From: Candidatus Eisenbacteria bacterium
GTDB taxonomy: Bacteria > Eisenbacteria > RBG-16-71-46 > SZUA-252
NCBI GenBank assembly: GCA_005893275.1
Contig: VBOW01000014.1
Span: 62,001-126,000 of the forward strand
Length of the DNA: 64,000 nt
Direction: 5' to 3'
Shown here: positions 7,970 through 22,780 of the stretch, in pieces
How the letters are laid out: each line of letters starts with the position of its first letter
How positions within the stretch are numbered: position 1 is the stretch's first letter
The notes under the pieces: generated by a model
Database searches by the model: none
What the model saw: the letters and a program-made list of their open reading frames with translations, nothing else
What the model was told of the DNA's origin: nothing
Program-made: the position numbers and the translations under genes

Positions 7970-8749
7970 TCAACGGGATTCCCCGCGGGGAAGCAGCTCG
8001 CGGGGGTCGAGCGGCTCCGTGCGCACTCCGCGGGGGAGGCTCAGGGAGAGATCGCGCGGGTTGGCCCTGGACAAGATCGTGAGGGCGCGGAACTCGACCT
8101 CGACCGAATCCTCATCTCCCGCGGCGCTGACCCAACGAGGAAAGCCGGTCGCGGGATCGGCCGCGATCCATACGGAAACGCTCGATGCCGAATCCTCCAT
8201 GGCGGAGCGGCGGACCCGGTATCCGTCCCTGAGCGCGCCCCCCGCGAGCCTGCGCTCGGACACGGCTCGAAAACCGCTGTCCAGCACCCGCTCGGGTTCC
8301 GTGATGAGCTGTCGCATGCGCGCCGGGGCGCGGTCCCACCCGGCACGATAGAGGACCTTCTCCGAAGGCCGGTACACGAGAAACGATCCCCTCTCGCGGT
8401 CCACGACGATGTCCTCGCCACCGCGCTCCTCCGATCGAAAGCGCAGGCCGCGGCCCGGAAGGAACCAGATGCGTCCGCTCGTGCGCTCGTCCGGGCCGCC
8501 GAAGGGGTCGGTCCTCCGGATGAGAACGCGCGATTGGATCTCCGGCGCTCGGAGCATGCGGGCGAGCATCCGGTCCACCGCCTCGTGCGGCGAGGACGCG
8601 GCGGGTTGGGCCGACGCACGGGGCGCGGCGGGCGCCTTGGCCGCCGCGCCGGCGGCCAGCGCCATGGCAACCGCGACCGCGGGCAGCCGGGCAAGGCCGC
8701 ACCGGAAGGCGCGGGTCGGGAAGGGTGGGCTCCAGGGCTTGCGGGTCAC
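7970..8749 (-). CDS. LolA-like periplasmic lipoprotein carrier / outer-membrane lipoprotein-sorting protein
   Basis: 259 residues. The N-terminal signal peptide (about 1-38) is rich in Ala. The body has the LolA/LolB-fold style of alternating strands, with SGRIWFLPGRGLRF, VYRPSEKVLYRAG and SVSVWIAADPATGFPRWV. Family members carry lipoproteins across the periplasm or act as sorting proteins. The GTG start at 8749 forms a GTGA overlap with the upstream lipoprotein gene, so the two are translationally coupled and may act together. Assignment rests on fold-like pattern, not on a single decisive motif. Confidence 0.65.
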   Translation of the reverse strand: MTRKPWSPPFPTRAFRCGLARLPAVAVAMALAAGAAAKAPAAPRASAQPAASSPHEAVDRMLARMLRAPEIQSRVLIRRTDPFGGPDERTSGRIWFLPGRGLRFRSEERGGEDIVVDRERGSFLVYRPSEKVLYRAGWDRAPARMRQLITEPERVLDSGFRAVSERRLAGGALRDGYRVRRSAMEDSASSVSVWIAADPATGFPRWVSAAGDEDSVEVEFRALTILSRANPRDLSLSLPRGVRTEPLDPRELLPRGESR

Positions 8750-9567
8750 GGTTCGACGGTCTCCTCCGAGAGGCCCAGTAGCCAGCGGACGAGCGAACGC
8801 CCGCCGGGTCGATCCAGCGCGAGGATCATCCACCCCGCCTCGGTCCGGGGCGCGTAGCGGATTCTCGAGGCGTCGGCCGGCGCGTGATCCTCGACCTCCA
8901 GACGAACCACGCTGCCAGAGAACGACCACTCGATCCACCTTGGAATGCGCCCCGCCTGAAAGCGCCGGGCGGGTCCGTAGCGGACCGAAATCAGATCGTC
9001 CCGGTCGCGCGCGCGCCGCAGCGTGAGCCTCGAGGGATCCGCGCCGGGCCCGATCTCGAGCGTGAACCGGCACTCCTCCCCGAGGCGGCCGCGCCCCCCG
9101 GAGCGATCGAGCCCGAGGCTCCCGCGAAGCGTCCAGCCCTTCCCCGACTCCTGGAGCTCCGCGTGCTCGAGCGCCTCCCGCACCCAATCGGGGCTCATGT
9201 CCCACGGGGTGGCGATGAAGCGTAGCAGGCGAGCCTCGATCCCTTCCTCTCCGCGGAGCGAGCCCGCGACGCCGGTTCCGTAGCGCCGGACGATGATGTA
9301 GAGCGAGTCCCCCTGGAGCGAAGCGTCGAGCGCGCGCGAAGGCCCCACGTATCCGACCACCGCCAGGCTCTCCGCGTTCTCGGCCCAGCGGACGCGCGCC
9401 CTGCCGCGTCCCCGTTCGGCCCGGCGGACCGAAATCGCGCCCACGCCGCGGGTCGGACCATGAGCCGCCGCATAGGCCGCGAGGAGCCGGTCGCGCGCCG
9501 AAGCCCCCGAGCTCGGCTTGGCGAGCCGCGCGCAGCCCGCGAGGAGCAACGCGGCGGCGAGCGCCAC
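8746..9567 (-). CDS. Outer-membrane lipoprotein of unknown function (DUF4292-like)
   Basis: About 273 residues from GTG 9567. A lipobox LLLAGC follows a short hydrophobic run, so the protein is lipid-anchored. The mature part is strand-rich, with DSLYIIVRRYGTGVAGSL and TPWDMSPDWV, and resembles lipoproteins of the LolB/DUF4292 type. It overlaps the LolA-like gene by four bases, which points to a shared role in lipoprotein traffic. The GTG leaves no positive N-terminus; an earlier near-cognate start would add basic residues (RARFARG). Divergent from pgeF. Confidence 0.6.
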   Translation of the reverse strand: MALAAALLLAGCARLAKPSSGASARDRLLAAYAAAHGPTRGVGAISVRRAERGRGRARVRWAENAESLAVVGYVGPSRALDASLQGDSLYIIVRRYGTGVAGSLRGEEGIEARLLRFIATPWDMSPDWVREALEHAELQESGKGWTLRGSLGLDRSGGRGRLGEECRFTLEIGPGADPSRLTLRRARDRDDLISVRYGPARRFQAGRIPRWIEWSFSGSVVRLEVEDHAPADASRIRYAPRTEAGWMILALDRPGGRSLVRWLLGLSEETVEP

Positions 9568-9627: not shown

Positions 9628-10386
9628 GTGTCGCAGGAAGCGCTCGAGGAACTGGTGGTGTGGCGCCCCGGCAAGGGGCATCTTCCGGAGACGGCGTGGT
9701 TCGGGATCCCGACGCGCCGCGGCGGCGTGAGCATCGGCCCATACGCTTCGCTCAATTTCGGGCTCGAAGTGGGAGACGAGCGCGAGGCGGTGCTCCGGAA
9801 CCGGGCGATCGCATTCGGGGCGCTCGGGATTCCCGGCCCGGGGCCCCTGCGGCTGCACCAGGTCCACGGGACCCGGATCGTCGAGCCGGACGACGCGCCG
9901 TGCGAAGCGGACGGATTCATCGTCCGCGCCGGGGACCCCTGGGTCGCGGTGTCGGCCGCGGACTGCGCCCCGGTGGCGCTGGTCGCGCGGAGCGGCGCCC
10001 GGGGCGCCCTTCTTCACTCGGGGTGGCGTGGTACCCGCGGCCGGATCGCGGCCCGCGCGGTCCGTCTCCTCGCGGCGCGAGGCGTTCCCGTCGGGGAGAT
10101 CCTCGCTTCGATCGGCCCGTGCATCCATGCCTGCTGCTATCCCATCGGGCCGGAGATCGCGCGCGATTTTCCGGGTCAGGTCCTGAAACCGCACGCGGCG
10201 GGCACCGCGCTCGACCTTCCGCTCGCGATCTCCCTCGCGCTTCGGGCGGAGGGGGTTCGCGAGGACGCGATCCTCGTGGCGCAAGAGTGCACCTCGTGCG
10301 AGGCCGGAAGCTTCTACTCCCATCGGCGGGACCGCGGCGTCACGGGCCGCCACTGGGCGCTCTTTCACCTCGCGACTGCCGAATAG
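9628..10386 (+). CDS. pgeF: Multicopper-oxidase-fold purine nucleoside phosphorylase (YfiH/PgeF/LACC1 family)
   Basis: 252 residues from GTG 9628. The zinc-site residues of the family are visible in LRLHQVHGTRIV, SAADCAPVAL and LLHSGWRGT. IGPCIHACCYPIG and the late QECTSC/FYSHRRD segments are also typical. Family members act on adenosine/inosine, and some edit peptidoglycan precursors. The last 47 bases overlap the convergent PAP2 gene, so the two transcripts are antisense to each other at their ends. Confidence 0.9.
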   Translation: MSQEALEELVVWRPGKGHLPETAWFGIPTRRGGVSIGPYASLNFGLEVGDEREAVLRNRAIAFGALGIPGPGPLRLHQVHGTRIVEPDDAPCEADGFIVRAGDPWVAVSAADCAPVALVARSGARGALLHSGWRGTRGRIAARAVRLLAARGVPVGEILASIGPCIHACCYPIGPEIARDFPGQVLKPHAAGTALDLPLAISLALRAEGVREDAILVAQECTSCEAGSFYSHRRDRGVTGRHWALFHLATAE

Positions 10387-10960
10387 ACGTTCCCTCGTCC
10401 ACCCCGGCCGGCGCGCGGGCGCGCCCCAGGATGCTGCGCTCCGAGCGGAAGAACGCCTTCCTTCCCAGAAACCCCAAGAACAGGCCGAGAATCGCTCCCC
10501 CCAGGACGTCGCTCGGGTAGTGGTCCCCGACGTAGATCCGCGACAGGGACACCACCGAGGCGAGGGCGTACGCAGGGATCGCCGCCTGCGGAATCGCCGC
10601 GGCCGCGACGGGCGCCGCCGCGAAGAAGTTGCTCGCGTGGCTCGAGGGGAACGACCAGGAGGTCCGCACCCCGAACAAAGGCTTGGCGTCGTGGAGCGAC
10701 ACCGACGGGCGCGCCCTGCGGAAGACCGGCTTCAGCACGTGGCTGCTCAGCTGGTCGGAGGCGGCGATCGTGAGCGAGAGCACGACCACGGCGATCGCGC
10801 CGCGGCGTCCCCGGAGCAGGAACACCAACGCGAAGAGCGCGAGGAGGGGAACCTTCCAGCGCCCGGGGTCGGTGAGCGCCATCATGACGGGATCCAGCCA
10901 TCGATGATGCATCCCGTGGTGGATCGCCCGGAAGAGCGCGGCGTCCCAGTCGGCCAGCAT
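10340..10960 (-). CDS. PAP2-superfamily membrane phosphatase
   Basis: 206 residues with about five to six membrane helices. The three phosphatase motifs are present: KPVFRRARP, PSSHASN and SRIYVGDHYPSDV. Such enzymes remove phosphate from undecaprenyl diphosphate or phosphatidylglycerol phosphate; the substrate here cannot be told. ATG start at 10960 (MLADWDAALFRAI). It ends inside the 3' part of convergent pgeF and follows the first peptidase-barrel gene after 11 bases. Confidence 0.9.
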   Translation of the reverse strand: MLADWDAALFRAIHHGMHHRWLDPVMMALTDPGRWKVPLLALFALVFLLRGRRGAIAVVVLSLTIAASDQLSSHVLKPVFRRARPSVSLHDAKPLFGVRTSWSFPSSHASNFFAAAPVAAAAIPQAAIPAYALASVVSLSRIYVGDHYPSDVLGGAILGLFLGFLGRKAFFRSERSILGRARAPAGVDEGTSIRQSRGERAPSGGP

Positions 10961-10971
10961 TCCTGCAGCGA

Positions 10972-13900
10972 CTAGAAGTCCGCGCCGAGGGTCACGAAGT
11001 GGTGCGACTCGCGGGCCGGACGCTGGAAATTCGTCGCGCGGCCGAAGTCGTATCGGAGGATGAAATAGCCCAGGTTCACGCGGGCGCCTGCGCCGAAGGC
11101 GAAGAGCAGATCGTCGGAATGGAACCCTCCCTCGTGCGTGAAGAAGCGCGGGGTCTGCCCCTTCTGCCACGCGCTGGCCGCGTCCAGGAAGATCACGCCG
11201 TTGATTCCGCCCAGCGTGATCCGCCCGGGCCAGCCGAAGCGGAGCTGCTCGATGAGCGGGAAGCGGAACTCGAGGTTCCCCAGGAGCGCGTTCGATCCCC
11301 TGAGGTCGCCGTAATCGACGCCGCGGAAGGTGAACGCTCCGCCGAATCGGAAGAGCCTCGGGTCGCGCCCGAAGCTCGATCCCGCGATGAGCCGCTGCGC
11401 GAACGCGTAGCTGTGGTGGAGGTTCGTGTAGCGCCGCCAGTCCATCATGGCCGTCGTATAGGAAACGTCCCCGAACGCGTGCTCCACGGTGTAGCTCGAG
11501 CGGCCGCCGTTGATCGGCCCCGTGGATCCGTAGAGGGCGTTGTCGGCGACCAAGGCCGCGTTCGGCGCGACGTAGAGATAGGTCTTGTCCTTCGCCTGCT
11601 GCGAGACGGTGCCCAGATCGTAGTTATAGAGAAGGACGCCTTTGTCGAGCGCCGCGGCCTCGACCCCGTATTCGACGCGCCGGAACCGGGTGAACGGCCA
11701 CGAGAGGAGGAAGGCCCCGCCGCGGTAGACCTGGCTTTCGACCTGATCGCTGCTTGGGGAGGAAAAAAGCAGGAGATCGGTCCGGTACTGGAACGCGGCG
11801 ACCGTATAGTTCGTTCGATGGGCGAGGTTCGAGTACGCCAGGTAGATGTCGGAATTCGCGAGATCGCCGAAGAGATTGAGCGCCGCGAGAATGTTGTGGT
11901 TTCCGAGCACGTCGCTGAAGGACATGACTGTCGATCCTGCGAAGCCGATGTTCGACGCGAAGAAGGCTCCCCCGGAAACGTAGTCGCGGGAGAACTTCGG
12001 CCGATAGGGAGCGTGCCGGAACGTGGTGCTGTCCACGAGCGGCTCCCGATAAGCCTGGCGCACATAGAGGGCGAGGGTCGTGTCCTGGACAGACGCGCGC
12101 GTCGTGTCCGCGGCAGCGCCCGCCGCTTCCGGGGCAGTCACCTCCGGGGAGGGCCGGTCCGGCGCGGGAAGCGGATCCTGCGCGCCCCGGATGGGATCGG
12201 ACACCCCCTCGGACGTTCCAGCCTGGGCCAGAAGAGGCGCCTCGGAAAAGTGCGCGGCCACGACAGGGGGCGATACGAGGAATTTCGGCACGTCGCGGAT
12301 CGAGTAGATGTCCCAGCCGCCGCGCGCGAACGCCGAGAAGAGGAGGCGCTTCCCGTCGCGCGAGAGCGAGACGCACGGGCTCTCCGGAACGATGCCGGAG
12401 ACCCCGGACAACAGGTTGGAGAGGCGGACGGCCTCACCGGTCGCCAGGTCCATGCGGAAGATGTTCGGAACCCCGAAACGATCGGAGACGAACACGATCG
12501 ACGAGCCGCCCGGCCCCCATTGCGGCGAGATGTTCGACCCGTGCTGGTTGGGGAGCACGGTCACCTTGCCGCTCCCGACCTCGAAAATCGCGATCCGGAG
12601 CTTCCCGAAGATGAGCCTCTTCACGTCGGTGTCGGGGCCCTGGTCGGTCGCGAACACGATCCGGGTCCCGTCCGGAGACCAGGACGGATCACGAATGGCG
12701 TACTTTCCCCCGAGCACCTCGCGCAGATTCTTGCCGTCGACGTCGCTGATATAGAGCTTGGAGTGGCCCTCCTTCAGGCCGACGAAGGCGAGCCGCCGCC
12801 CGTCCGGAGACCAGGTCGGTGAGTAGATCGCGTCGAGCCCGAACTTCAGCTTCTCCTTTACCTTTCCCGACGGAATCTCGATCAAATAGATCGCGTCCTG
12901 CCCGCCGATCTTGGCCGGCACCGCGATCTGGCTCTCATCGGGGGCCCAGGCGATCGAAGTGTTGAAGAAGCGAAGCGTCTCGAAGCTCCCGGTCCGCTCT
13001 CCCTCGACGAGCTTCTTGAACACCCTGCCGTCGAGCGCGGATGCGAGATAGAGGTCGTTGTACATGCTGCGGTCGGAGATGAAAACCATCTGCGTACCGG
13101 TGGGAGAGACCGAGGGCGCGACGTTGAAGTTGGACAGGTCCCGCTCGGCATCCGTCAGCTTCGTGGCGATCCGGTCGGCCTTGTCGTAATCGGCAATCTG
13201 GGGCAGGTATTCCTTGCGGACCGACTCGGTCCACTTCTTGGACAGCACGTCGACGGAGAGCCCGGTCGAGGACTCGAGCGCTTTGTCCAGGCTCCCCAGG
13301 CGCCGGGTCCTCTTGAGAATTTCACCGATCTTCTGGATGCCGTAGGTATCGGCGATGAACTCGAAGATCGACTGCCCAAAACGGTAGACCCGGATGTCCC
13401 CCACGTATTCCAGCGTGCGGATCTGGGTCAGGTAGCCCTCGAGCGAGGCATCGCGGAGCCACATCTTGGTGTTGGTGTCGATCTCCGCGATCGACAGGTA
13501 CTCTGCCATCCCTTCCATGAACCACAGGGGCGGCGAGGATGCGAAGGGATTCCCGACGAGGCCCTGGCGGTCCCCGAACAGAATATCAACCTGGAACGCG
13601 TGAACCAGCTCGTGGGTCAGAACGTGGTCCAGCTCCCCGTAGGAGCCGGTGAACGGAAGAAACACCCGGCGCTTGAGGAACTCGGTGACCCCACCCGTGC
13701 CGACCCCGATCAGCTCGGGGGTGATGTTGGTCTGCTCGAAGTCCGTGTGCGAGGCGTAGAGGACGAGCGGAACCTTGGCCTTGATTTGGTGATCGAGCAC
13801 GCGGCTGAGCCTCTTGTAGGCCCGCTCGGCCATGACCGCCGCGTCCTGGACCGCTTCCTCTTCACCCCGATAGTAATAGACGTCGAAGTGCTCGGTCTTG

Positions 13901-14067
13901 AGCACCGACCAGTGGAAGTCCTTGTAGTGGACCTTGTTTTGGCCGAAGTACTGCGCGGCGGAGGGAGCGGGCGCGGCAACCCCCCCCAGCCCGAGGAGCA
14001 GCGTGACCGCGAGCCGCGCGCGGCGTCGTGACACGCTCGAGTCCTCCGGCCGACTGCTCCTATTCAT
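10972..14067 (-). CDS. Secreted fusion: HExxH zinc peptidase domain + PD40 propeller + Omp85-like barrel (copy 1)
   Basis: 1031 residues. Signal peptide about 1-39, then a gluzincin-like peptidase MA domain with HELVH (H152, E153, H156) and WFMEG (E185). A PD40/TolB-type propeller covers about 320-640, with repeats such as SPTWSPDGRRLAFV and DPSWSPDGTRIVFA. A linker rich in Ala/Pro precedes a strand-rich barrel (about 710-1031). The barrel has TFRGVDYG near the end and a terminal Phe, as in outer-membrane barrels. No POTRA domain is seen. The ATG at 14067 overlaps alaX by four bases (ATGA). Copy 2 lies at 18248-21052. Function unknown; outer-membrane location is a strong inference, proteolysis is likely from intact zinc ligands. 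Confidence 0.85.
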   Translation of the reverse strand: MNRSSRPEDSSVSRRRARLAVTLLLGLGGVAAPAPSAAQYFGQNKVHYKDFHWSVLKTEHFDVYYYRGEEEAVQDAAVMAERAYKRLSRVLDHQIKAKVPLVLYASHTDFEQTNITPELIGVGTGGVTEFLKRRVFLPFTGSYGELDHVLTHELVHAFQVDILFGDRQGLVGNPFASSPPLWFMEGMAEYLSIAEIDTNTKMWLRDASLEGYLTQIRTLEYVGDIRVYRFGQSIFEFIADTYGIQKIGEILKRTRRLGSLDKALESSTGLSVDVLSKKWTESVRKEYLPQIADYDKADRIATKLTDAERDLSNFNVAPSVSPTGTQMVFISDRSMYNDLYLASALDGRVFKKLVEGERTGSFETLRFFNTSIAWAPDESQIAVPAKIGGQDAIYLIEIPSGKVKEKLKFGLDAIYSPTWSPDGRRLAFVGLKEGHSKLYISDVDGKNLREVLGGKYAIRDPSWSPDGTRIVFATDQGPDTDVKRLIFGKLRIAIFEVGSGKVTVLPNQHGSNISPQWGPGGSSIVFVSDRFGVPNIFRMDLATGEAVRLSNLLSGVSGIVPESPCVSLSRDGKRLLFSAFARGGWDIYSIRDVPKFLVSPPVVAAHFSEAPLLAQAGTSEGVSDPIRGAQDPLPAPDRPSPEVTAPEAAGAAADTTRASVQDTTLALYVRQAYREPLVDSTTFRHAPYRPKFSRDYVSGGAFFASNIGFAGSTVMSFSDVLGNHNILAALNLFGDLANSDIYLAYSNLAHRTNYTVAAFQYRTDLLLFSSPSSDQVESQVYRGGAFLLSWPFTRFRRVEYGVEAAALDKGVLLYNYDLGTVSQQAKDKTYLYVAPNAALVADNALYGSTGPINGGRSSYTVEHAFGDVSYTTAMMDWRRYTNLHHSYAFAQRLIAGSSFGRDPRLFRFGGAFTFRGVDYGDLRGSNALLGNLEFRFPLIEQLRFGWPGRITLGGINGVIFLDAASAWQKGQTPRFFTHEGGFHSDDLLFAFGAGARVNLGYFILRYDFGRATNFQRPARESHHFVTLGADF

Positions 14068-15269
14068 GTTGCCGTCCCTTCCTGAGTTCCGGCGAGCGCG
14101 GCCGCCCTCGCGGCATCCAGCGCCGCCCCCGAGACGTGCGCCGGGATCGCTCCCTGGGCCGACTCTGGCCGGCCGCCCCCCTTTCCGCCGTACTCGCGGC
14201 AAAGCCGCCCCAGAAGATCGCCCACCGACATTGTACCCGCTGGCGCCGAAAAGTGCGCCCTCGGCGTCTCGCCTCCCGCCAGGAGCAACGCGATGGCCCC
14301 CCGACCCGCGATGAGCGAGGCCAGGGTCCCGATCTCGCCGGAGTCCCGGTCGGGAAAATGCCGCGCCACAACCGGACCGCGAGGGCCCTTCGGTGCCGCC
14401 TCGATCAGCGCCGCGGCTTCGCGCGTGAGCTCGGACAGGAGCAGCGGCTTGAGCCTCCGGTCGAGGCGCTCGCGCTCCGCTTTGAGCCGCGCCACGGCGC
14501 TCGGGAGGTCGCCCTCCCCCGCCGTGAAGGCGAGCGACAGCTCGCGCAGGAGCCGCGCCCGCTCCCTCTGGCGCCGGAGCGCCCGCCCGCCGCAGACGAA
14601 CGCCACGCGGGTCCCCCCTTTGTATTTTTCCGCCGAGAGAACGACCACCATGCCGACCTGGCCGGCCCGGCCCACGTGGGTGCCGCCGCACGCGGACCAG
14701 TCGAACCCACGCACCTCCACGACACGCACGAGTCCTTCCACCGCGGGGAGCTTGCGGAGCGGAAACCGACCGACATCCTCGCGCGGGACCCGGTGGACCA
14801 GGATCTCACGATCTTCCCACACCACCTCGTTCGCCCGGTCCTCCACGTTGCGAAGGATGTCCGCGTCGGGCCCCGGATGGGCGACGTCGATCGAAACCTC
14901 TTCCGCTCCGAGATGGAATGAGCGCGTCTCGGCCCCGGCGACGGCGAGGAACGCTTGGGAAAGGATGTGCTGGCCGGTGTGCTGTTGCATGTGGTCGAAT
15001 CGCCGCGCCCAGTCGAGCGAGCCTTGTACGCGGGTGCCGGTCGCCACCGATCCCTCCACGCGGTGCCACACGCGCCCGTCTTCCTCGGATACGTCGACGA
15101 CCGGGATCGCGTCGATCAGGCCGCGGTCCGCGGGCTGCCCCCCTCCCGCGGCATAGAACGCGGTTTGATCCAGCTCGATCCAGGTCGCGCCGTCCCGCTC
15201 GACCGAATGGAGCACGGTGCCTTCGAAATCGCGAATGGTGGAGTCTTCGTCGTAGAGAAGCCGGGTCAA
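14064..15269 (-). CDS. alaX: Alanyl-tRNA editing protein AlaX (long form with DHHA1)
   Basis: 401 residues. Free-standing AlaRS editing domain that hydrolyses Ser- or Gly-tRNA-Ala. Zinc-site residues are H97 and H101 (HTGQH) and C194 and H198 (CGGTH). The C-terminal third has the DHHA1 signature GGKGGGRPESAQG. No AlaRS catalytic core is present, so it is a trans-editing factor rather than alaS. It is followed with an ATGA overlap by the first peptidase-barrel gene, an unusual partner. Confidence 0.92.
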   Translation of the reverse strand: MTRLLYDEDSTIRDFEGTVLHSVERDGATWIELDQTAFYAAGGGQPADRGLIDAIPVVDVSEEDGRVWHRVEGSVATGTRVQGSLDWARRFDHMQQHTGQHILSQAFLAVAGAETRSFHLGAEEVSIDVAHPGPDADILRNVEDRANEVVWEDREILVHRVPREDVGRFPLRKLPAVEGLVRVVEVRGFDWSACGGTHVGRAGQVGMVVVLSAEKYKGGTRVAFVCGGRALRRQRERARLLRELSLAFTAGEGDLPSAVARLKAERERLDRRLKPLLLSELTREAAALIEAAPKGPRGPVVARHFPDRDSGEIGTLASLIAGRGAIALLLAGGETPRAHFSAPAGTMSVGDLLGRLCREYGGKGGGRPESAQGAIPAHVSGAALDAARAAALAGTQEGTAT

Positions 15270-15381
15270 ATACGGAACCTCGGGATTGTGCCGAGCCGGG
15301 CGGGATCACGGGGATCATACCCTGGCCGGCTCCCCGGTCGCAACCGGGAGCGCGCGGAGTGCGGTCTTTGATGCGAGGGAG

Positions 15382-15876
15382 TTAGCGCGTCAGCGCGACG
15401 TTCCGCTGCTCGATCAGGTCGGCGATCGATTCGGTGAGGCCGCGAAGCTCGGCGAGGTTCATCTCGAACTGCTCATCGTGCTTGTAGGCCTTTTCGAGCT
15501 CGTGAACGAGCCGATGCAGCCGGTCGATATGCTCCACGATGTCACGGTCGATGCCGGCGACCGGGTCCACGACGCCGTCGGTATACGCGCGCTGCCCGGG
15601 CTCGATCACGATCGCGCCGGCGAGAAACTCCAGCTTGCGGGCGCTTCCATCCAATTCCTCGAGAAAGTCGGAGAAGTCCTCACGAAACTGCCGGCTCTCG
15701 ATCCGTTCCAGCCTGTGCGCCTCCGCGTTCAGGTGCTCCGCCACGCTTGCCCGGAACCGCCTGTCATCTTCGCGACGCTGGGAGGGCTCCAGATATCCGC
15801 GATACCCCGGAACGTGACGTGCGACGTTCTCGACCCCATCCAACGTTGCGACCTTCGCCTGGCGCGTGCGTGGCAT
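15382..15876 (-). CDS. Hypothetical coiled-coil protein
   Basis: 164 residues from the ATG at 15876 (MPRTRQAK). Near the N-terminus is VPGYRGYLEPSQRREDDRRFR, which resembles the GYxGYxxxxxRRxxD segment of an uncharacterised bacterial coiled-coil family. The rest is predicted long helices rich in Glu, Arg and Leu. No signal peptide or membrane segment, so probably cytoplasmic. Located between alaX and a lipoprotein gene with 112- and 229-base spacers, so likely its own transcript. Function unknown. Confidence 0.7.
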   Translation of the reverse strand: MPRTRQAKVATLDGVENVARHVPGYRGYLEPSQRREDDRRFRASVAEHLNAEAHRLERIESRQFREDFSDFLEELDGSARKLEFLAGAIVIEPGQRAYTDGVVDPVAGIDRDIVEHIDRLHRLVHELEKAYKHDEQFEMNLAELRGLTESIADLIEQRNVALTR

Positions 15877-16105
15877 CCGGTCTCTCCTCCTCACGATTGC
15901 AGACTGCAATCTCCGACAACCCAATCTCGATCGCGTACGCTGCCGGCGGCAACTTTCCCGCCACCCGCCCGAACCGTTCCGCGAGCGGCCGTATCTGCTT
16001 CCCACGGTCGCGGATCCCGCCACAGGGTCCGGGCGATCCGAGCCTTAGACCCGCGGCCCGGCATGGGGATTCCGCAACTCCCATGCCACGGGGCGGGAGC
16101 GCCCT

Positions 16106-17383
16106 CTAGGGAACGGCGACCCGCACGGCGTACGGAGTTTGGAGGGGGATAGACGACCGTAGGATGGCGCCCGACCGGTCGATGCAAAGAACGCGGTCCG
16201 AGCGGAGATCGGCGACCCAGCACGATCCGTCGACGGGATCGATCTCGAGACCGTAGGGCTCGACCCCGCTCACGGCAGCGAGCGTCGCGCCCGCGCGCGC
16301 GAGGCGGCTCACCCGGCCTGATCCGAAGCCGGGAGGGCCCCGCTCGCTCAACCAGAGATCCCCGCTCGATGCATCGACCGCGAGATCGGCGACGTTCGAG
16401 AGATTCGTGCGCACGAGGGTCGAGGAGCTGTCGGCCGGGTTGAGATAGAAGAGACTTCCCACGTCGCTCTGACGCGTCGCGACCCACGCGCCCCCCGTCG
16501 ATTCGTCGAGCGCGATCGCGCGGATCGAACCGGCGCCCAACCCCCACGCGTGCGTGAGGACGATATCCTGGGCGCGAAACCGGTAGACAACACCCTCCTC
16601 GTTCCCTACCCAGACGGAGGGATCGAGGGTGCCCGCCTCGACAACCCGCGGGTTCCCGACGGCGTCGATCGAGCGCAGGGGCGTGGCGTCGTTGATGTTG
16701 GGACCGAAGGAGACCACGCGTTGCTCCGAGAGAGACACGACCCAACCGATGCCCCGACTTTCCGAAACGGACAGGTCCCCGGGGGCCCCAATCGAAAGGA
16801 CCGCGCCGATGGTGGCGCCGTCCTCCGACTTCCGTAGCACGAGCCCGGCGGCCTCGGCCGCGAGCCAGATCACTTCCCGTGTCCGGTCGAGCTCCAGATC
16901 GACGTAACTCTCGTCGCCGGGGCGCTCGAAGAGCAGGTCCCGCCCATCGGGCGCAAGCCGCGAGAATGCCGGGCCGCCGGCCTCGAGCACGAACACGCGC
17001 CTCACGCCGGGCGTGGCCGTGTCCGGGGGGCTGACCACGCTGTCTCCGGTCGCCAGGTGGGCGATCAGGCGATACACATACGTCGAGTCGTTCACCACGG
17101 AGCTGTCTTCCCCCGCGCTCGCGGCGGGGTTGTAATCGGCGAAGCCCAGCGGCCGGGGCGCTTCCCCGGGCTTCCAGCGTTGCACGCGATAGCCGGAGAC
17201 TCCCTGGACCGCCAGCGCCGTCCATCGAAGCTCCACGACACCGTCGGCGGCGATGGCGTTGAACCCCGTGAGCGCGCCCTGCGTCGCCGTGTTCTTGGGA
17301 TCGAGCGGGTTGAGCCGCTCGCGGGTCGTGCAGCCGGAGACGAGAAGGGTGACCGTCAGGAAGAGTCTCATGCCCGGTCTCAC
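16106..17383 (-). CDS. Lipoprotein with FN3-like and NHL-like propeller repeats
   Basis: 425 residues. Lipobox VSGC at about residues 15-18, then NPLDPKNTATQG, a hallmark of secreted lipoproteins in FCB-type bacteria. A fibronectin-III-like segment (VELRWTALAVQGVSGYRVQR) follows. The rest is repeats of about 45 residues with patterns such as DLAVDASSGDLWLSERG and GLEIDPVDGSCWVADL, typical of NHL/six-blade propellers. The GTG at 17383 overlaps the PEGA gene stop (GTGA); ATG at 17371 is equally good. Likely an extracellular or periplasmic binding scaffold; partner unknown. Confidence 0.8.
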   Translation of the reverse strand: MRPGMRLFLTVTLLVSGCTTRERLNPLDPKNTATQGALTGFNAIAADGVVELRWTALAVQGVSGYRVQRWKPGEAPRPLGFADYNPAASAGEDSSVVNDSTYVYRLIAHLATGDSVVSPPDTATPGVRRVFVLEAGGPAFSRLAPDGRDLLFERPGDESYVDLELDRTREVIWLAAEAAGLVLRKSEDGATIGAVLSIGAPGDLSVSESRGIGWVVSLSEQRVVSFGPNINDATPLRSIDAVGNPRVVEAGTLDPSVWVGNEEGVVYRFRAQDIVLTHAWGLGAGSIRAIALDESTGGAWVATRQSDVGSLFYLNPADSSSTLVRTNLSNVADLAVDASSGDLWLSERGPPGFGSGRVSRLARAGATLAAVSGVEPYGLEIDPVDGSCWVADLRSDRVLCIDRSGAILRSSIPLQTPYAVRVAVP

Positions 17384-18228
17384 CGCGTCGAGCCGCTCAC
17401 GAGGAGGAAGAGGCCCCCGGTGAAAAACACCTGCCCCACCCCGAGCGCGACGAGCGAGAGGTGGTCGTAGCGCACCGCGCGGTCGAAGTAGCTATCCAGC
17501 AGGCGGCGATCCGAGGACTGCAAGTATCGCTCGTACCACTGGTCCCCTTCGCGGCGCAGGAGCGCGGCTGCGCCCGTCAGCCCTGCGCCCACACCCACGA
17601 GGCTCCACTGGAGCCAAGGGCGCCGGTAAACCGGCGGCCGTCGAGCCGGAGCGGCGAGGGTCTGGGCCACCCGTCGTAAGGAAACGCTCGCCGACCCGGA
17701 CGCCCGCCCGAGATCCAGGAGGGAATCTCCCGAGACCGTCGTATCCGCGTGATCCGGCGCGCGAAAACGGAATCGATTCCCCTCCAGCAGCGCCGGTCCG
17801 ATTCCGAGCGGCGTCTCGCCGAGGAGCGAGTCTCCCCCGGCCGCGAAACGGAATACCTGTGCGGGCTCGGGCGCGCTCCGCAGCATGACGCGGGGTCTCA
17901 AATCCAGGAACACGCGCGCTGTGACGCCGGGGCGAATCGTCGCCTGCGCCGCGTCGGAGGCATTGTCGAAGTGACGCGGATCGTCGGGAAGCGCGCGGAC
18001 GCGGACGGTCTTCGCCGGGAGCCAGATCGGTCCCAAGGGGGAGCGCCCGGCCTCAACATCGTCGATGAGGATGAGCAGACCGGGGGGCGCGGTCTCGACG
18101 AAAAGGGCCCCGGCCGAAGAATCCGGGGGCGCTAGCTCGCGCTGGAGGTAGGAGCCGGCGAGAGCTTGGGACGGGGATGCGACAAGGACCGCGGCGGCCA
18201 GAGCCGCCGCGTAGCAGGCCTTGCGTTC
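17380..18228 (-). CDS. Secreted PEGA-domain protein with C-terminal membrane segments, start unresolved
   Basis: The frame contains a signal-like stretch (RKACYAAALAAAVLVA), then a PEGA-type domain (ALFVETAPPGLLILIDD, then GRSPLGPIWLPA). It ends in two hydrophobic segments around WSLVGVGAGLTGAAALL and VALGVGQVFFTGGLFLL. The first ordinary in-frame start is TTG at 18036, inside the PEGA domain, so the 5' limit given here is approximate. A GGAGG ribosome site lies at 18233-18237. TTG at 18239 would give a good signal peptide if one base were missing after it; CTG 18201 is another option. Found between the two peptidase-barrel genes. Confidence 0.65.
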   Translation of the reverse strand, partial: ERKACYAAALAAAVLVASPSQALAGSYLQRELAPPDSSAGALFVETAPPGLLILIDDVEAGRSPLGPIWLPAKTVRVRALPDDPRHFDNASDAAQATIRPGVTARVFLDLRPRVMLRSAPEPAQVFRFAAGGDSLLGETPLGIGPALLEGNRFRFRAPDHADTTVSGDSLLDLGRASGSASVSLRRVAQTLAAPARRPPVYRRPWLQWSLVGVGAGLTGAAALLRREGDQWYERYLQSSDRRLLDSYFDRAVRYDHLSLVALGVGQVFFTGGLFLLVSGSTR

Positions 18229-18232
18229 CTCG

Positions 18233-18237
18233 CCTCC
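18233..18237 (-). promoter_or_regulatory. Shine-Dalgarno GGAGG without a normal start codon
   Basis: GGAGG is placed as expected for the PEGA gene signal peptide, but no ATG, GTG or TTG follows in that frame at 5-10 bases. Either a non-standard start is used or a base is missing. Confidence 0.4.
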
Positions 18238-18247
18238 AAATCGGGGC

Positions 18248-21052
18248 CTAGTAGTCGAAACCCACGTAAAATTCGCGCTCCCAACCCGGCTTGACCCTCT
18301 GAAAATCCGTCTGTCGGGCCAGATCGTAGCGCAAGACGAAGTAGCCGCCCAGGCTCATCCTCAGCCCGAGGCCGAAGCTCCCCTTGGGGCGCGGGAATTT
18401 TTCGAACTTCTCCCAGGCGTTCCCCGCGTCGGCGAACACCGCTCCCTCGATCCCCGGAAGCTCGAGCGATTGGAGCGGAACCCCGAGGACCAGCCTGTCG
18501 AACAGAGGGAACCGGTACTCCGCGTTGACCAGGTACATCCGCGTCCCGTAGAGGCTCCGCCGTCCATACCCGCGCAAGGAGTAGGAGCCGCCCATCGCGA
18601 ATCGCTGCGGATCCGCCCCCGAGCTCACGCGCGACTGGAGCCTCAAGGCTACGGTCGTCCACTGGCTCATGCGCAGGTAGCGCCTGAGATCCGCGCTCAC
18701 CATCACGTTTTCGGTCCGTCCGTTGTTCCAGTTGGTCGTGAGCGCGCCGGTCAGGTTATACCGGGCGCCGTCGCGCGGCCCCGTCGAGAACCAGAGCGCG
18801 TTGTCCCGGACCAAAGACAGGGAGTGCGTCGTGAGGAATCCGCGACGCGACGTTCCGAAGTCGCGCACCTTCTCGTCGTAATAGGCTTGCGCCGTACCCT
18901 CGATGCGGCTGAATCGTGAAAAGGGGTAGCTCGCGAGGATGGAAGCTCCCGCTTTCCGCTCGAAGTACTGCGCCCCGATCGCGTCTTCGTAGTCCCCCGC
19001 CGTGTGGAACACGCCGAGGCCGTAGTTCCAGCGGTGCTGAAGGTTGATGTACCAGGCCCCTCCGCTCATCCGGGAGAGGATCTCCGAGGTGGACTGGGCC
19101 GTGTTTCCCAACTGGAAGTAGAACAGATGGTTTCCCAGCAAATCGCTGACCGCGCCTTGGAGCCCCTCGCCGATGTTCTCGGTCGGCTCCACGGCGATCC
19201 CGCCCTGGACGAGGTCGAGCCCGTAGCGGGGCTCGTAAGGCATCGGGTGCTGCGTCGAACGCGCGAGCGTGTCTTCCCACCGCCATGGCGACGGCACGTC
19301 GACGGTCTCGAGCGAGAAGGAGTCCACCACCTGATCGGGGACGGGCATCTGGTACACGGCGAAGCCGCCGCGACGGTAGCCCGTGAAGAGAATTCCCTTG
19401 CCGTCCGGGAGCCACGAAGGGTCCATGGCCGCACCAAGCAGCCGTTTGAACCGCCCGCCGTCCCCGTTGGGGTTCACGGCGTAGAGGTCCGACGATCCGC
19501 TTCGGTCCGAAGCAAATGCGATCCGGCTGCCGTCCGGGGACCAGGCCGGCGTTTGATCCGTCCACGCGCCGCACGTGAGGTAGCGGATCGCAAGGGTCTC
19601 CGTATCGATGAGGAAAAGATTCTGGTGGCCGTCGGCGCCGAACCGCGTCCGGTCCGAGCTGAACGCGATCTGCTTTCCGTCGGGCGACCACGTCGGATCG
19701 AGGTCGGTGTAGAAGTCGTTGGTGAGCCGGCTCAGCACCTTCGTCGTGCGGTCGAACACGTAGAGGTCCATCTGCCCCGAAGGCTTGAGCCCGGCAACGG
19801 CGATCTTCGTTCCCTCCCGATTCCAAGCCGGCGACGAGAGGGCGATCAGGTCATCGAGATACTCGCGGACAAGAACCTTCTTGGCCGTCACGTCGTAGAC
19901 GAAGAGCGCGTCCCGCTCGTTCCACTTCGAGACGAACGCCAGCTCCCCCTTGCGGGAAACATCGATGCGGCTTTGGAAGGGATGGAACGATTCGAATTGC
20001 GCCGCGCGCTGCCCGCGCACCACCGAGCGAACGTCCTGCTCGCGCCCGCGCCACGATGCGCTGTAGATGTTCGTGTAGCCGCTGCGCGCGGAGATGAAGA
20101 AGTAACGGCATCCGCCGAAGAGCGTCGAATCAGGGACCGCGACCGGTTTCAGATTCACTCCCTGCGAGCCGGCGCGTTCCTCCCCCGCCAGCGCGAGCGT
20201 CATCCGGTCCTTCACCTCGGGAAAATACTGCCGCTTCAGACGGTAGATCCAATCGTCGGAGAGCCGGCGCGTCGGGACCCCCGTCACGCGTTGGAGCAGC
20301 TTCTCGAAACGGTCGTCCTTGTAGATTTCCGTGTAGAGACGCCTCAGCGCGTCATCCCCGTAGGTCTCGCCGATGTACTGGCAGAGGCTCTGCCCGAGCT
20401 TGTAGACCGCGAACGTCCCGTTGTACCGCCACAGGTCCTGGATGCCCGGAAGGCGATCCTCGAGGACCATGTCGCCCACCACCATGGTTCCCTGCGAGTC
20501 CCACGAGGTGGACCAGTACTCCGCGAGCCCCTCGGAGAACCAAAGCGGTGGCACGACATAGGAGGCCTTGCGGTGCTTCTTGTACACCTCCTCCAAGATG
20601 GAGAGCTGGAAGACGTGCACCAGCTCGTGATGGATCACATGGCGAAATTCGGCGAAGGATCCCGTGTAGGGGAGCACGACGCGACCCTTCGAAAACTCGG
20701 TGAACCCCTGCACGCCCTCGGGAAGGGAGTACGGGCTCACGTTCGTCTGCTCGAAATGCTGGTGCGAGGAGTAGACGATGAGCGGGATCGAGCGCGAGAC
20801 CTCGTGCTGGAACTTGCCTTTCAGATCTTGATAGCTCTCTTCCGCGAGCGTGAGCGCCACGCGGGCAAGCGGCTCTTCCTCCGGATAGTAGAAGATCTCC
20901 ACGTGATCGCCGCGAAGCGTCAGCCATTGAAATGAGTTGTAATGCACCTTGTTCTTCCCGAACGCGAAGGACTGGGCGTGCGAGAGAGCCGGCGCGAAAG
21001 CAGAGGTGGACGCGATCGCGAGGAGACCGACGAGGAGCCTAATCTTCTTCAT
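18248..21052 (-). CDS. Secreted fusion: HExxH zinc peptidase domain + PD40 propeller + Omp85-like barrel (copy 2)
   Basis: 934 residues with a textbook signal peptide (MKKIRLLVGLLAIAS, cleavage after about residue 27). Peptidase MA-like domain: HELVH (H142, E143, H146) and WFSEG (E174). PD40 repeats at about 330-600 include DPTWSPDGKQIAFSSDR and TPAWSPDGSRIAFASDR. The C-terminal barrel has YSLRGYG, close to the (V/L)RGY loop motif of Omp85 proteins, then NAEYRFPLFDRL, and ends in an aromatic residue. Same layout as the 10972-14067 protein but clearly diverged. A near-consensus promoter lies 63 bases upstream. Confidence 0.85.
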   Translation of the reverse strand: MKKIRLLVGLLAIASTSAFAPALSHAQSFAFGKNKVHYNSFQWLTLRGDHVEIFYYPEEEPLARVALTLAEESYQDLKGKFQHEVSRSIPLIVYSSHQHFEQTNVSPYSLPEGVQGFTEFSKGRVVLPYTGSFAEFRHVIHHELVHVFQLSILEEVYKKHRKASYVVPPLWFSEGLAEYWSTSWDSQGTMVVGDMVLEDRLPGIQDLWRYNGTFAVYKLGQSLCQYIGETYGDDALRRLYTEIYKDDRFEKLLQRVTGVPTRRLSDDWIYRLKRQYFPEVKDRMTLALAGEERAGSQGVNLKPVAVPDSTLFGGCRYFFISARSGYTNIYSASWRGREQDVRSVVRGQRAAQFESFHPFQSRIDVSRKGELAFVSKWNERDALFVYDVTAKKVLVREYLDDLIALSSPAWNREGTKIAVAGLKPSGQMDLYVFDRTTKVLSRLTNDFYTDLDPTWSPDGKQIAFSSDRTRFGADGHQNLFLIDTETLAIRYLTCGAWTDQTPAWSPDGSRIAFASDRSGSSDLYAVNPNGDGGRFKRLLGAAMDPSWLPDGKGILFTGYRRGGFAVYQMPVPDQVVDSFSLETVDVPSPWRWEDTLARSTQHPMPYEPRYGLDLVQGGIAVEPTENIGEGLQGAVSDLLGNHLFYFQLGNTAQSTSEILSRMSGGAWYINLQHRWNYGLGVFHTAGDYEDAIGAQYFERKAGASILASYPFSRFSRIEGTAQAYYDEKVRDFGTSRRGFLTTHSLSLVRDNALWFSTGPRDGARYNLTGALTTNWNNGRTENVMVSADLRRYLRMSQWTTVALRLQSRVSSGADPQRFAMGGSYSLRGYGRRSLYGTRMYLVNAEYRFPLFDRLVLGVPLQSLELPGIEGAVFADAGNAWEKFEKFPRPKGSFGLGLRMSLGGYFVLRYDLARQTDFQRVKPGWEREFYVGFDY

Positions 21053-21169: not shown

Positions 21170-22780
21170 TTATACGGATATACCGTAGACGGGCTCTCCC
21201 GCCACCCACACCCGCCTGACCTTCGCCCGGTGCAGGCTCTGCGGATCCATCCGCAGCAGATCCTGGTCGAATACGACCAAATCCGCCCCCCAACCGGGCT
21301 CGATCCGCCCGAGCGGCGTCCGCCAGCCCGCCATCCGATTGGGCTCCTCGAGATGCGCCTTGAGGGCGCGCCCGAGCCCGATCCTCTGCTCGGGGTGAAA
21401 CGCTTCGGATTCCGGCTCACCGCCCCTCCGGCGGAGCAGCGCCGCCTGTAGGGCGAGGAGCGGTCCGGCGCGATCGTAGGGAGCGTCGGACCCGAAGAGA
21501 AGCCGCGCGCCCGCGCGGGACAGCGTCCTCCACGCGTAGGAGCGGCTCGTGCGGGCGCCCCATTTGCGCGCGGCGACCTTGCGGTCGGTGACCTGATGGA
21601 TGGGCTGAACCGATGCGAGAACGCCAAGTCCCTTGAACCGGGGAATATCCTCTTCCCGTGCGAGTTGAACATGTTCGATCCGGGGCGGGAGCGGAAAGCC
21701 GCCGCCTTGAATCGAGGCTTCGATCGCGTCGAGCGCGTTCCGCACCGCCCGGTCTCCGATCGCGTGGATCGCGACGGTGAGGCCGGCCTTCCGGGCGCGT
21801 GTGCACCGATCCGCGAGCTCGGCGGGTGAGATGACTTCGGTCCCCGTGCCCGTATTATCGTCGTACTCTTCCTCGAGCAAAGCGGTTCCCGATCCGAGCG
21901 TCCCGTCGGCGAAAAACTTCACCGGACCGATCCGCAGGCGGTCGTTTCCCCACCCGCTGCGCAGCTCGAGTTGTTCGGCGCATTCGAGCTTCGCGGCGGG
22001 GACCGAGACGAGGAGCCGGAACGGGAGCTGGTCCCGTTCGCTGAGCCGCTGCGCCGCGCTCCAGATGTCCGTGCGGTCGAAGTCGTGCGCGCCCGTGATT
22101 CCGAGCGAATGCGCCTTGCGGATCGCGCGCCCGAGCTCCTCGGCCGGATCGCGTTGGCGCTTTACGAAGGGGCTGATCAGGGACACCGCCTGCTCGATCA
22201 GGATTCCGGTGAGATCCCCTGTCGGGTCTCGATCGACGGCCCCTCCGGAAGGAGTCGTGGTGCCTGGGCCGATGCCGGCGGCCCGGAGCGCCGCGCCGTT
22301 CGCCCACACGGAGTGCCCGTCGGCCGCGTACAGGATGAGCGGGCGCGAGGGGAGCGAGCGGTCCAGAATCGCCAGGCGCTTCAGCTCGCGTGGCCACTCG
22401 CGCGGGACCCAGCCTCTGATCGTGACCCACTCCCCCTCCGCTGCCCGCTCCTGCGCGATGCGGACCGCGCGGGCCAGACCCTCGGGCGACTGCTCGGCCA
22501 GCCATGCGTCGCTCAAGGCTCGGATCCAGGTCAGGAGGTGGATATGGGAATCGACGAATCCCGGCGTGAGGGTTCCACCGCGCAGGTTCACGGCACGCAC
22601 ATCGCGGCCCGCCCCGCGCCGCAGCGACTCGAGCGGCCCCACGGCTTCGATCCGGTCCCCGCGAACGAGCACCGCCTCGCGGTATCGATCGCGGACCCGC
22701 GCTCCGGCCCGGCGCGCGTCGAGGATGCGCCCGCCGTGGAAAAGCCACCCCGCTTCGGCCCTGCGCGCCGGCCTTTTCAC
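21170..22780 (-). CDS. Amidohydrolase family 3 (YtcJ-like) metal-dependent hydrolase
   Basis: 536 residues. TPGFVDSHIHLL carries the metal-binding HxH. GPVKFFADGTLGSGTALL, VAIHAIGDRAVRNALD, PRIEHVQL and LLFGSDAPYDRAGP follow in the order seen in YtcJ-type amidohydrolases. No signal peptide, so cytoplasmic. Substrates of this subfamily are mostly unknown (amides, esters or cyclic ureas). Its start overlaps the cutA stop by four bases (ATGA). Confidence 0.88.
   Translation of the reverse strand: MKRPARRAEAGWLFHGGRILDARRAGARVRDRYREAVLVRGDRIEAVGPLESLRRGAGRDVRAVNLRGGTLTPGFVDSHIHLLTWIRALSDAWLAEQSPEGLARAVRIAQERAAEGEWVTIRGWVPREWPRELKRLAILDRSLPSRPLILYAADGHSVWANGAALRAAGIGPGTTTPSGGAVDRDPTGDLTGILIEQAVSLISPFVKRQRDPAEELGRAIRKAHSLGITGAHDFDRTDIWSAAQRLSERDQLPFRLLVSVPAAKLECAEQLELRSGWGNDRLRIGPVKFFADGTLGSGTALLEEEYDDNTGTGTEVISPAELADRCTRARKAGLTVAIHAIGDRAVRNALDAIEASIQGGGFPLPPRIEHVQLAREEDIPRFKGLGVLASVQPIHQVTDRKVAARKWGARTSRSYAWRTLSRAGARLLFGSDAPYDRAGPLLALQAALLRRRGGEPESEAFHPEQRIGLGRALKAHLEEPNRMAGWRTPLGRIEPGWGADLVVFDQDLLRMDPQSLHRAKVRRVWVAGEPVYGISV

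Follow-up and report, generated by a model that had tools for sequence, protein, structure and literature searches.

Zinc peptidase-TolB-like propeller-Omp85 barrel proteins of Candidatus Eisenbacteria: a protease-bearing variant of the WD40-Omp85 subfamily

The window analyzed here, a 64,000-nucleotide stretch of a Candidatus Eisenbacteria contig (VBOW01000014.1, positions 62,001 to 126,000), carries two genes that each encode a gluzincin-type zinc peptidase, a TolB-like propeller and an Omp85 barrel in a single chain. Gene A (10972-14067) and gene B (18248-21052; product P0002) lie on the minus strand, as do all other features of the window given with coordinates below, and they were delimited from their ORFs, Pfam and NCBIfam matches, AlphaFold2 models and Foldseek comparisons. 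Both ORFs are intact. The product of gene A is P0001 with 13 additional N-terminal residues and begins MNRSSRPEDSSVS-RRRARL..., its start codon overlapping the stop codon of the preceding gene, while the product of gene B starts MKKIRLL.... As read from the sequence, B has a clear signal sequence, MKKIRLLVGLLAIASTSAFAPALSHAQ, to which the N-terminal stretch RRRARLAVTLLLGLGGVAAPAPSAAQ of A is equivalent. The genome (2.88 Mb, 99.65% complete) encodes exactly two such proteins.

Next to B lies the gene for a PEGA-like protein whose C-terminal part has two hydrophobic helices (17380-18225), which overlaps by 4 bp the gene for a lipoprotein with the lipobox LLVSGC and an NHL/SGL-like propeller (16106-17383). 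Pfam matches and neighborhood comparisons mark both as conserved partners of B, the lipoprotein in six other families. The PEGA match of the window gene is sub-threshold (E 0.05), and its orthologues at loci L136 and L138 score over the cut-off. The sequence pattern of the helix pair is retained in these two orthologues, which hints at membrane anchoring and a possible bridge to the barrel in the outer membrane. The rest of the interval is occupied by a coiled-coil protein that has no family match and is conserved only within the window's own family, f1, at 62-93% identity (15382-15873), and, directly before A, by a stand-alone alanyl-tRNA editing protein of the AlaX/AlaRS C-terminal type (14064-15269), conserved beside A only within f1. 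The sequence-only reading had listed the first three of these genes correctly and omitted the editing gene. A PAP2-superfamily phosphatase directly after A (10340-10951) and an amidohydrolase before B (21170-22780) are likewise conserved only within f1. Further along, two small exported proteins (7970-8740 and 8746-9492) look LolA-like and LolB-like by eye, a reading that was dropped when neither gave a Pfam or NCBIfam match.

The N-terminal domain of each protein is a clan MA gluzincin, placed by motif conservation and a profile match at 13174-13953 in A and 20192-20923 in B. The HELVH motif is encoded at 13600-13614 in A and 20615-20629 in B, and the third zinc ligand is Glu172 in A (13513-13515) and Glu175 in B (20531-20533); these elements are invariant in all homologues. 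Single sequences of the N-termini give weak matches to Peptidase_MA_2, Peptidase_M9 or BSP in Pfam and NCBIfam. With a profile of the N-terminal domain, Peptidase_MA_2 (PF13485) was matched in 24 of 27 family members, at best with 1e-18, and the best matches among solved structures were M9 collagenases (7wss, E 1.7e-5). The likeness to these enzymes, including the shared HExxH...E ligand set, is confined to the catalytic core. A first set of 77 full-length proteins kept the motif HExxH...W-x-x-E-G without exception, and so did 117 of 117, at identities down to ~30%, once other phyla had been added, in a collection selected for long ORFs. Thus, the HELVH and W-F-x-E-G pattern noted in the sequence-only reading is not a chance occurrence. 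Since the motif, with its zinc ligands and catalytic Glu, is intact in all 117 homologues, the N-terminal domain is likely, judging from its sequence, to be an active protease, and conservation of the zinc site across proteins so divergent argues for catalysis. Neither an M48, TPR nor patatin match was found in A or B with Pfam and NCBIfam.

The peptidase is followed by a TolB-like (PD40) beta-propeller, at 12298-13167 in A and 19313-20182 in B. PD40/TolB repeats are strong in both proteins in Pfam and NCBIfam (PD40 at 7e-25 and 9e-23, each over the Pfam cut-off), sequence searches of the PDB with both propellers retrieved TolB, and Foldseek ranked TolB first among PDB structures for the propeller of each model. 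TolB is therefore the closest protein to these propellers in both sequence and fold, but A and B lack its N-terminal domain, and their propeller sits between peptidase and barrel. The C-terminal part is predicted to be a 16-strand Omp85 beta-barrel, at 10984-11991 in A, with TFRG loop and FLDAA strand motifs, and at 18257-19225 in B, with SLRGY and FADAG motifs. For B the Omp85 match in Pfam (PF01103, 9e-9) is over the cut-off; for A the evidence of Omp85 is an NCBIfam match (NF047779, at 6e-7 and under its curated cut-off) and the predicted structure.

AlphaFold2 models built from alignments of 37 (B) and 40 (A) homologues reached a pLDDT of 85.5 and pTM of 0.83 for B, and 84.5 and 0.82 for A. 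Both contain three folded domains: a helical N-terminal domain (residues ~40-285), the propeller (~290-580), and 16 long C-terminal strands (residues 611-933 in B, 680-1015 in A). The linker from propeller to barrel is a low-confidence stretch of 59 residues in A and is short and partly disordered in B. Foldseek matched the C-terminal part to the barrels of TamA (TMt up to 0.69) and BamA (0.62-0.63), and it is from the strand count and this fold match that a closed barrel is predicted. An Arg in an RG loop and an Asp in an FxDAG strand are hallmarks of Omp85 barrels. Both are near-invariant in the A and B families, with Arg902/Gly903 of the TFRG motif and Asp949 of A, and Arg828 of the SLRGY motif and Asp876 of B, conserved at 90-100%. 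By these models and residues, the C-terminus of A and B is a genuine Omp85-type barrel, alike in fold to BamA and TamA (TMt 0.6-0.7). BamA and TamA carry POTRA domains, whereas Pfam and NCBIfam found no POTRA match in A or B, and in the models that segment is the peptidase and propeller. AlphaFold2, Foldseek and Pfam thus agree with the earlier proposal of a signal peptide, peptidase, propeller and Omp85 barrel joined in one protein, with POTRA replaced by the two middle domains.

A search with the family profile across 290 sampled genomes was positive in 109 at E <= 1e-100, many of them outside the class to which the window genome belongs, and B-type proteins are present in Gemmatimonadota. 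In a tree of 117 proteins, A and B fall on opposite sides of one branch with a support of 100, and at least 25 genomes of the class carry both an A and a B. A divides further into A1, which includes the window's A (families f1, f3, f4, f7, f9 and f10), and A2 (f2, f6, f8 and relatives). Two genes of the set are interrupted: gene A of the f1 genome G006 (L129:3855-6882) has a frame break close to the propeller-barrel junction, and gene B of genome G031 (L020) has a single in-frame TAA. These are probably draft-assembly errors or recent decay.

Part of this architecture has been described. Heinz and Lithgow (2014) divided Omp85/TpsB proteins into ten subfamilies, including WD40-Omp85, in which a TolB-like propeller precedes the barrel and POTRA is absent, as in A and B, and they proposed from the barrel and propeller a role in outer-membrane assembly as a BamA-BamB-like fusion (PMC4104836). 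No HExxH peptidase is mentioned there for WD40-Omp85, and their 'Metallo' subfamily carries PF00149, an unrelated fold (PMC4104836). Because the 2014 description has the propeller and barrel and mentions no peptidase, we place A and B, by domain architecture and that description, as a protease-bearing variant of WD40-Omp85, and the two as old paralogue groups of this branch. The suggestion that such proteins were not yet described is accordingly right only in part: the propeller-Omp85 arrangement was published in 2014, and we found no description of the peptidase domain. Searches of the literature on Omp85 with PD40, on metallopeptidases with TolB, and on Eisenbacteria returned nothing relevant, and no experiment on any A or B homologue was found; a 2026 review of the BAM complex does not discuss the WD40-Omp85 subfamily (PMC13067283). 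The protease part, together with the genomic ties to outer-membrane assembly genes outlined below, appears to be new.

An intriguing question is whether A and B work together, as the sequence-only reading supposed when it grouped the pair, the lipoprotein and the PEGA protein into one envelope system. A and B are neighbors only in f1, where a block of ~20 kb is syntenic and comprises a glycosyltransferase, CutA, the amidohydrolase, B, the PEGA protein, the lipoprotein, the coiled-coil protein, AlaX, A, PAP2 and YfiH. Because the whole block is syntenic, unrelated housekeeping genes included, the closeness of A and B in f1 has little functional meaning. Outside f1, 17 genomes of the class were compared, and none has the two genes linked: they are either on different contigs or, in the single-contig genome G019, 1.24 Mb apart. 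We therefore rejected A and B as one conserved system, and also rejected as system parts the AlaX, coiled-coil, PAP2, amidohydrolase and CutA genes, which are only syntenic neighbors within f1. What does hold across families is the association of B with its PEGA and propeller-lipoprotein partners.

Outside f1, 18 B loci of the class had enough sequence to be evaluated. The NHL lipoprotein lies beside B in 16 of these 18, as does a PEGA-type protein (16/18, some matches being weak at 34-52 bits). The partners are downstream on the same strand in f4, f7 and f9, and convergent in f6, f8 and f11. In f4, f7 and f9 a BamB-like PQQ propeller precedes the PEGA protein or is fused to it; at L136:11208-13355, in f4, the two are fused, and at L138:5593-7609, in f7, they are separate. 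In the window's family, only the PEGA part is present. Beyond the class, a BamB-like neighbor of B also occurs in three genomes, and it is found in one Gemmatimonadales genome as well; a BamB-like protein is encoded next to B in many genomes. In four Gemmatimonadota, the genes after B are instead those for a small, unassigned lipoprotein and for LptE (e.g., L046:10900-12052 and L047:11498-12055).

The partners of A are different. An A2-type gene lies directly after rseP, a BamA/TamA-type Omp85 with POTRA, and TamB in 20 of 25 genomes of f2, f6, f8 and f11, A2 being absent or cut by contig ends in the remainder, and genome G181, of another phylum, has the same order with an A-type gene. At L112:483-11066, L092, L099 and other loci, from several families, the operon runs rseP, BamA/TamA-type Omp85, TamB, protease-propeller-Omp85 and uvrD. 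None of the B partners occurred at the 22 non-f1 in-class A loci that were fetched, and TamB occurred at none of the B loci compared. For the window's A the link to TAM is through its sister clade A2 only; in the window genome TamB is on a contig other than that of A. A1 genes adjoin a heptosyltransferase and a TPR membrane protein in f4, f7, f9 and f10, and a search for a conserved A1 partner beyond these families found none. Other adjoining genes, dapB at some B loci and uvrD or recN at some A loci, suggest that ordinary neighbors are present too.

What might such proteins do? Taken together, the consistent presence of assembly-factor genes nearby, the Omp85 fold and the intact protease suggest a part in outer-membrane biogenesis that involves proteolysis. 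A reading to which we give about an even chance is that A and B are outer-membrane-anchored proteases for assembly or quality control, built into an Omp85 barrel and BepA-like in role. We infer that the zinc endopeptidase and the TolB-like propeller behind it would face the periplasm. The propeller may dock partners or clients: the products of the linked PEGA, propeller-lipoprotein and BamB-like genes are the probable ones for B, and the TamA-TamB line for A-type proteins. With the client engaged by the barrel at the membrane, outer-membrane proteins or lipoproteins that are stalled or immature would be trimmed or destroyed by the attached protease, much as BepA of E. coli, a zinc metallopeptidase of the periplasm that acts on BAM clients, either promotes LptD on this complex or degrades it (PMC8423444). 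The likeness is one of role only, since BepA is a separate soluble M48 protein with TPR repeats and A and B have protease and barrel in one chain. TAM takes part in the assembly of outer-membrane proteins and may also serve phospholipid flow (PMC11014939). The putative clipping of a partner at the barrel mouth, raised in the sequence-only reading, is plausible.

An alternative is suggested by PlpD, a patatin-Omp85 protein that, like A and B, has an N-terminal enzyme domain on an Omp85 barrel and exports its own lipase, a mode also suggested for other enzyme-Omp85 fusions (PMC4104836). By analogy, the barrel of A or B could carry its own peptidase, and the propeller with it, to the surface as an exposed or released protease, with the low-confidence linker of A as a possible release site. 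PlpD itself is a lipase and has no propeller. Against export, two bulky folded domains would here need to cross the barrel, and the linker of B is only short. Moreover, the genomic partners are periplasmic assembly factors rather than secretion targets, and the peptidase is on the same chain in all 117 homologues, although that collection was chosen for long ORFs. We regard such export as improbable. We likewise consider it unlikely that B is a dedicated translocon that exports or assembles the lipoprotein or the PEGA protein and clips it in passage, and that A does likewise for another client. The very tight linkage of B, lipoprotein and PEGA protein across families does resemble a two-partner arrangement, but in f6, f8 and f11 the partners are convergent and not co-transcribed, and the client would have to differ in Gemmatimonadota, since B there has LptE and a lipoprotein instead.

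It is also conceivable that the peptidase fold only binds, and that A and B are plain insertases of the BamA/TamA type with unusual periplasmic domains. An assembly role was, after all, proposed from the barrel and propeller alone (Heinz and Lithgow, PMC4104836), but zinc ligands and a catalytic Glu invariant over 117 divergent proteins would be unlikely without catalysis, and we think a pseudo-enzyme very improbable. As for a fusion created by misassembly of separate genes, the frame break in G006 and the in-frame TAA in G031 are what could be cited for it. The parts are not joined by assembly error, because dozens of independent genomes encode them as a single ORF, with 117 full-length homologues from many families and phyla; we consider this explanation refuted, with practically no chance of being right.

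The known BAM and TAM machines depend on free-standing proteases, BepA and DegP among them, to clear failed clients. A large, old family that couples an intact metalloprotease to an Omp85 barrel by way of a TolB-like propeller would solve this problem differently. It is possible, and we suggest it only tentatively, that A and B represent a class of assembly factor with a built-in protease, in which TAM-linked A and BamB/LptE-linked B serve as dedicated, membrane-embedded checkpoints that combine insertion and destruction of outer-membrane clients in a single chain. Such a class would be widespread in Eisenbacteria, Gemmatimonadota and further phyla, most of them uncultured. For envelope biology this would raise the question of whether one Omp85 protein can choose between inserting a client and cutting it. 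The WD40-Omp85 subfamily, named in 2014 without a function, gains a domain and a set of candidate partners: TamA-TamB, the BamB-like protein, the PEGA protein, the NHL lipoprotein and LptE.

Canonical POTRA proteins are encoded elsewhere in the window genome. The Omp85 of the rseP-TamB operon passes the cut-off of the BamA model, and a separate, longer POTRA protein is encoded elsewhere in the genome.
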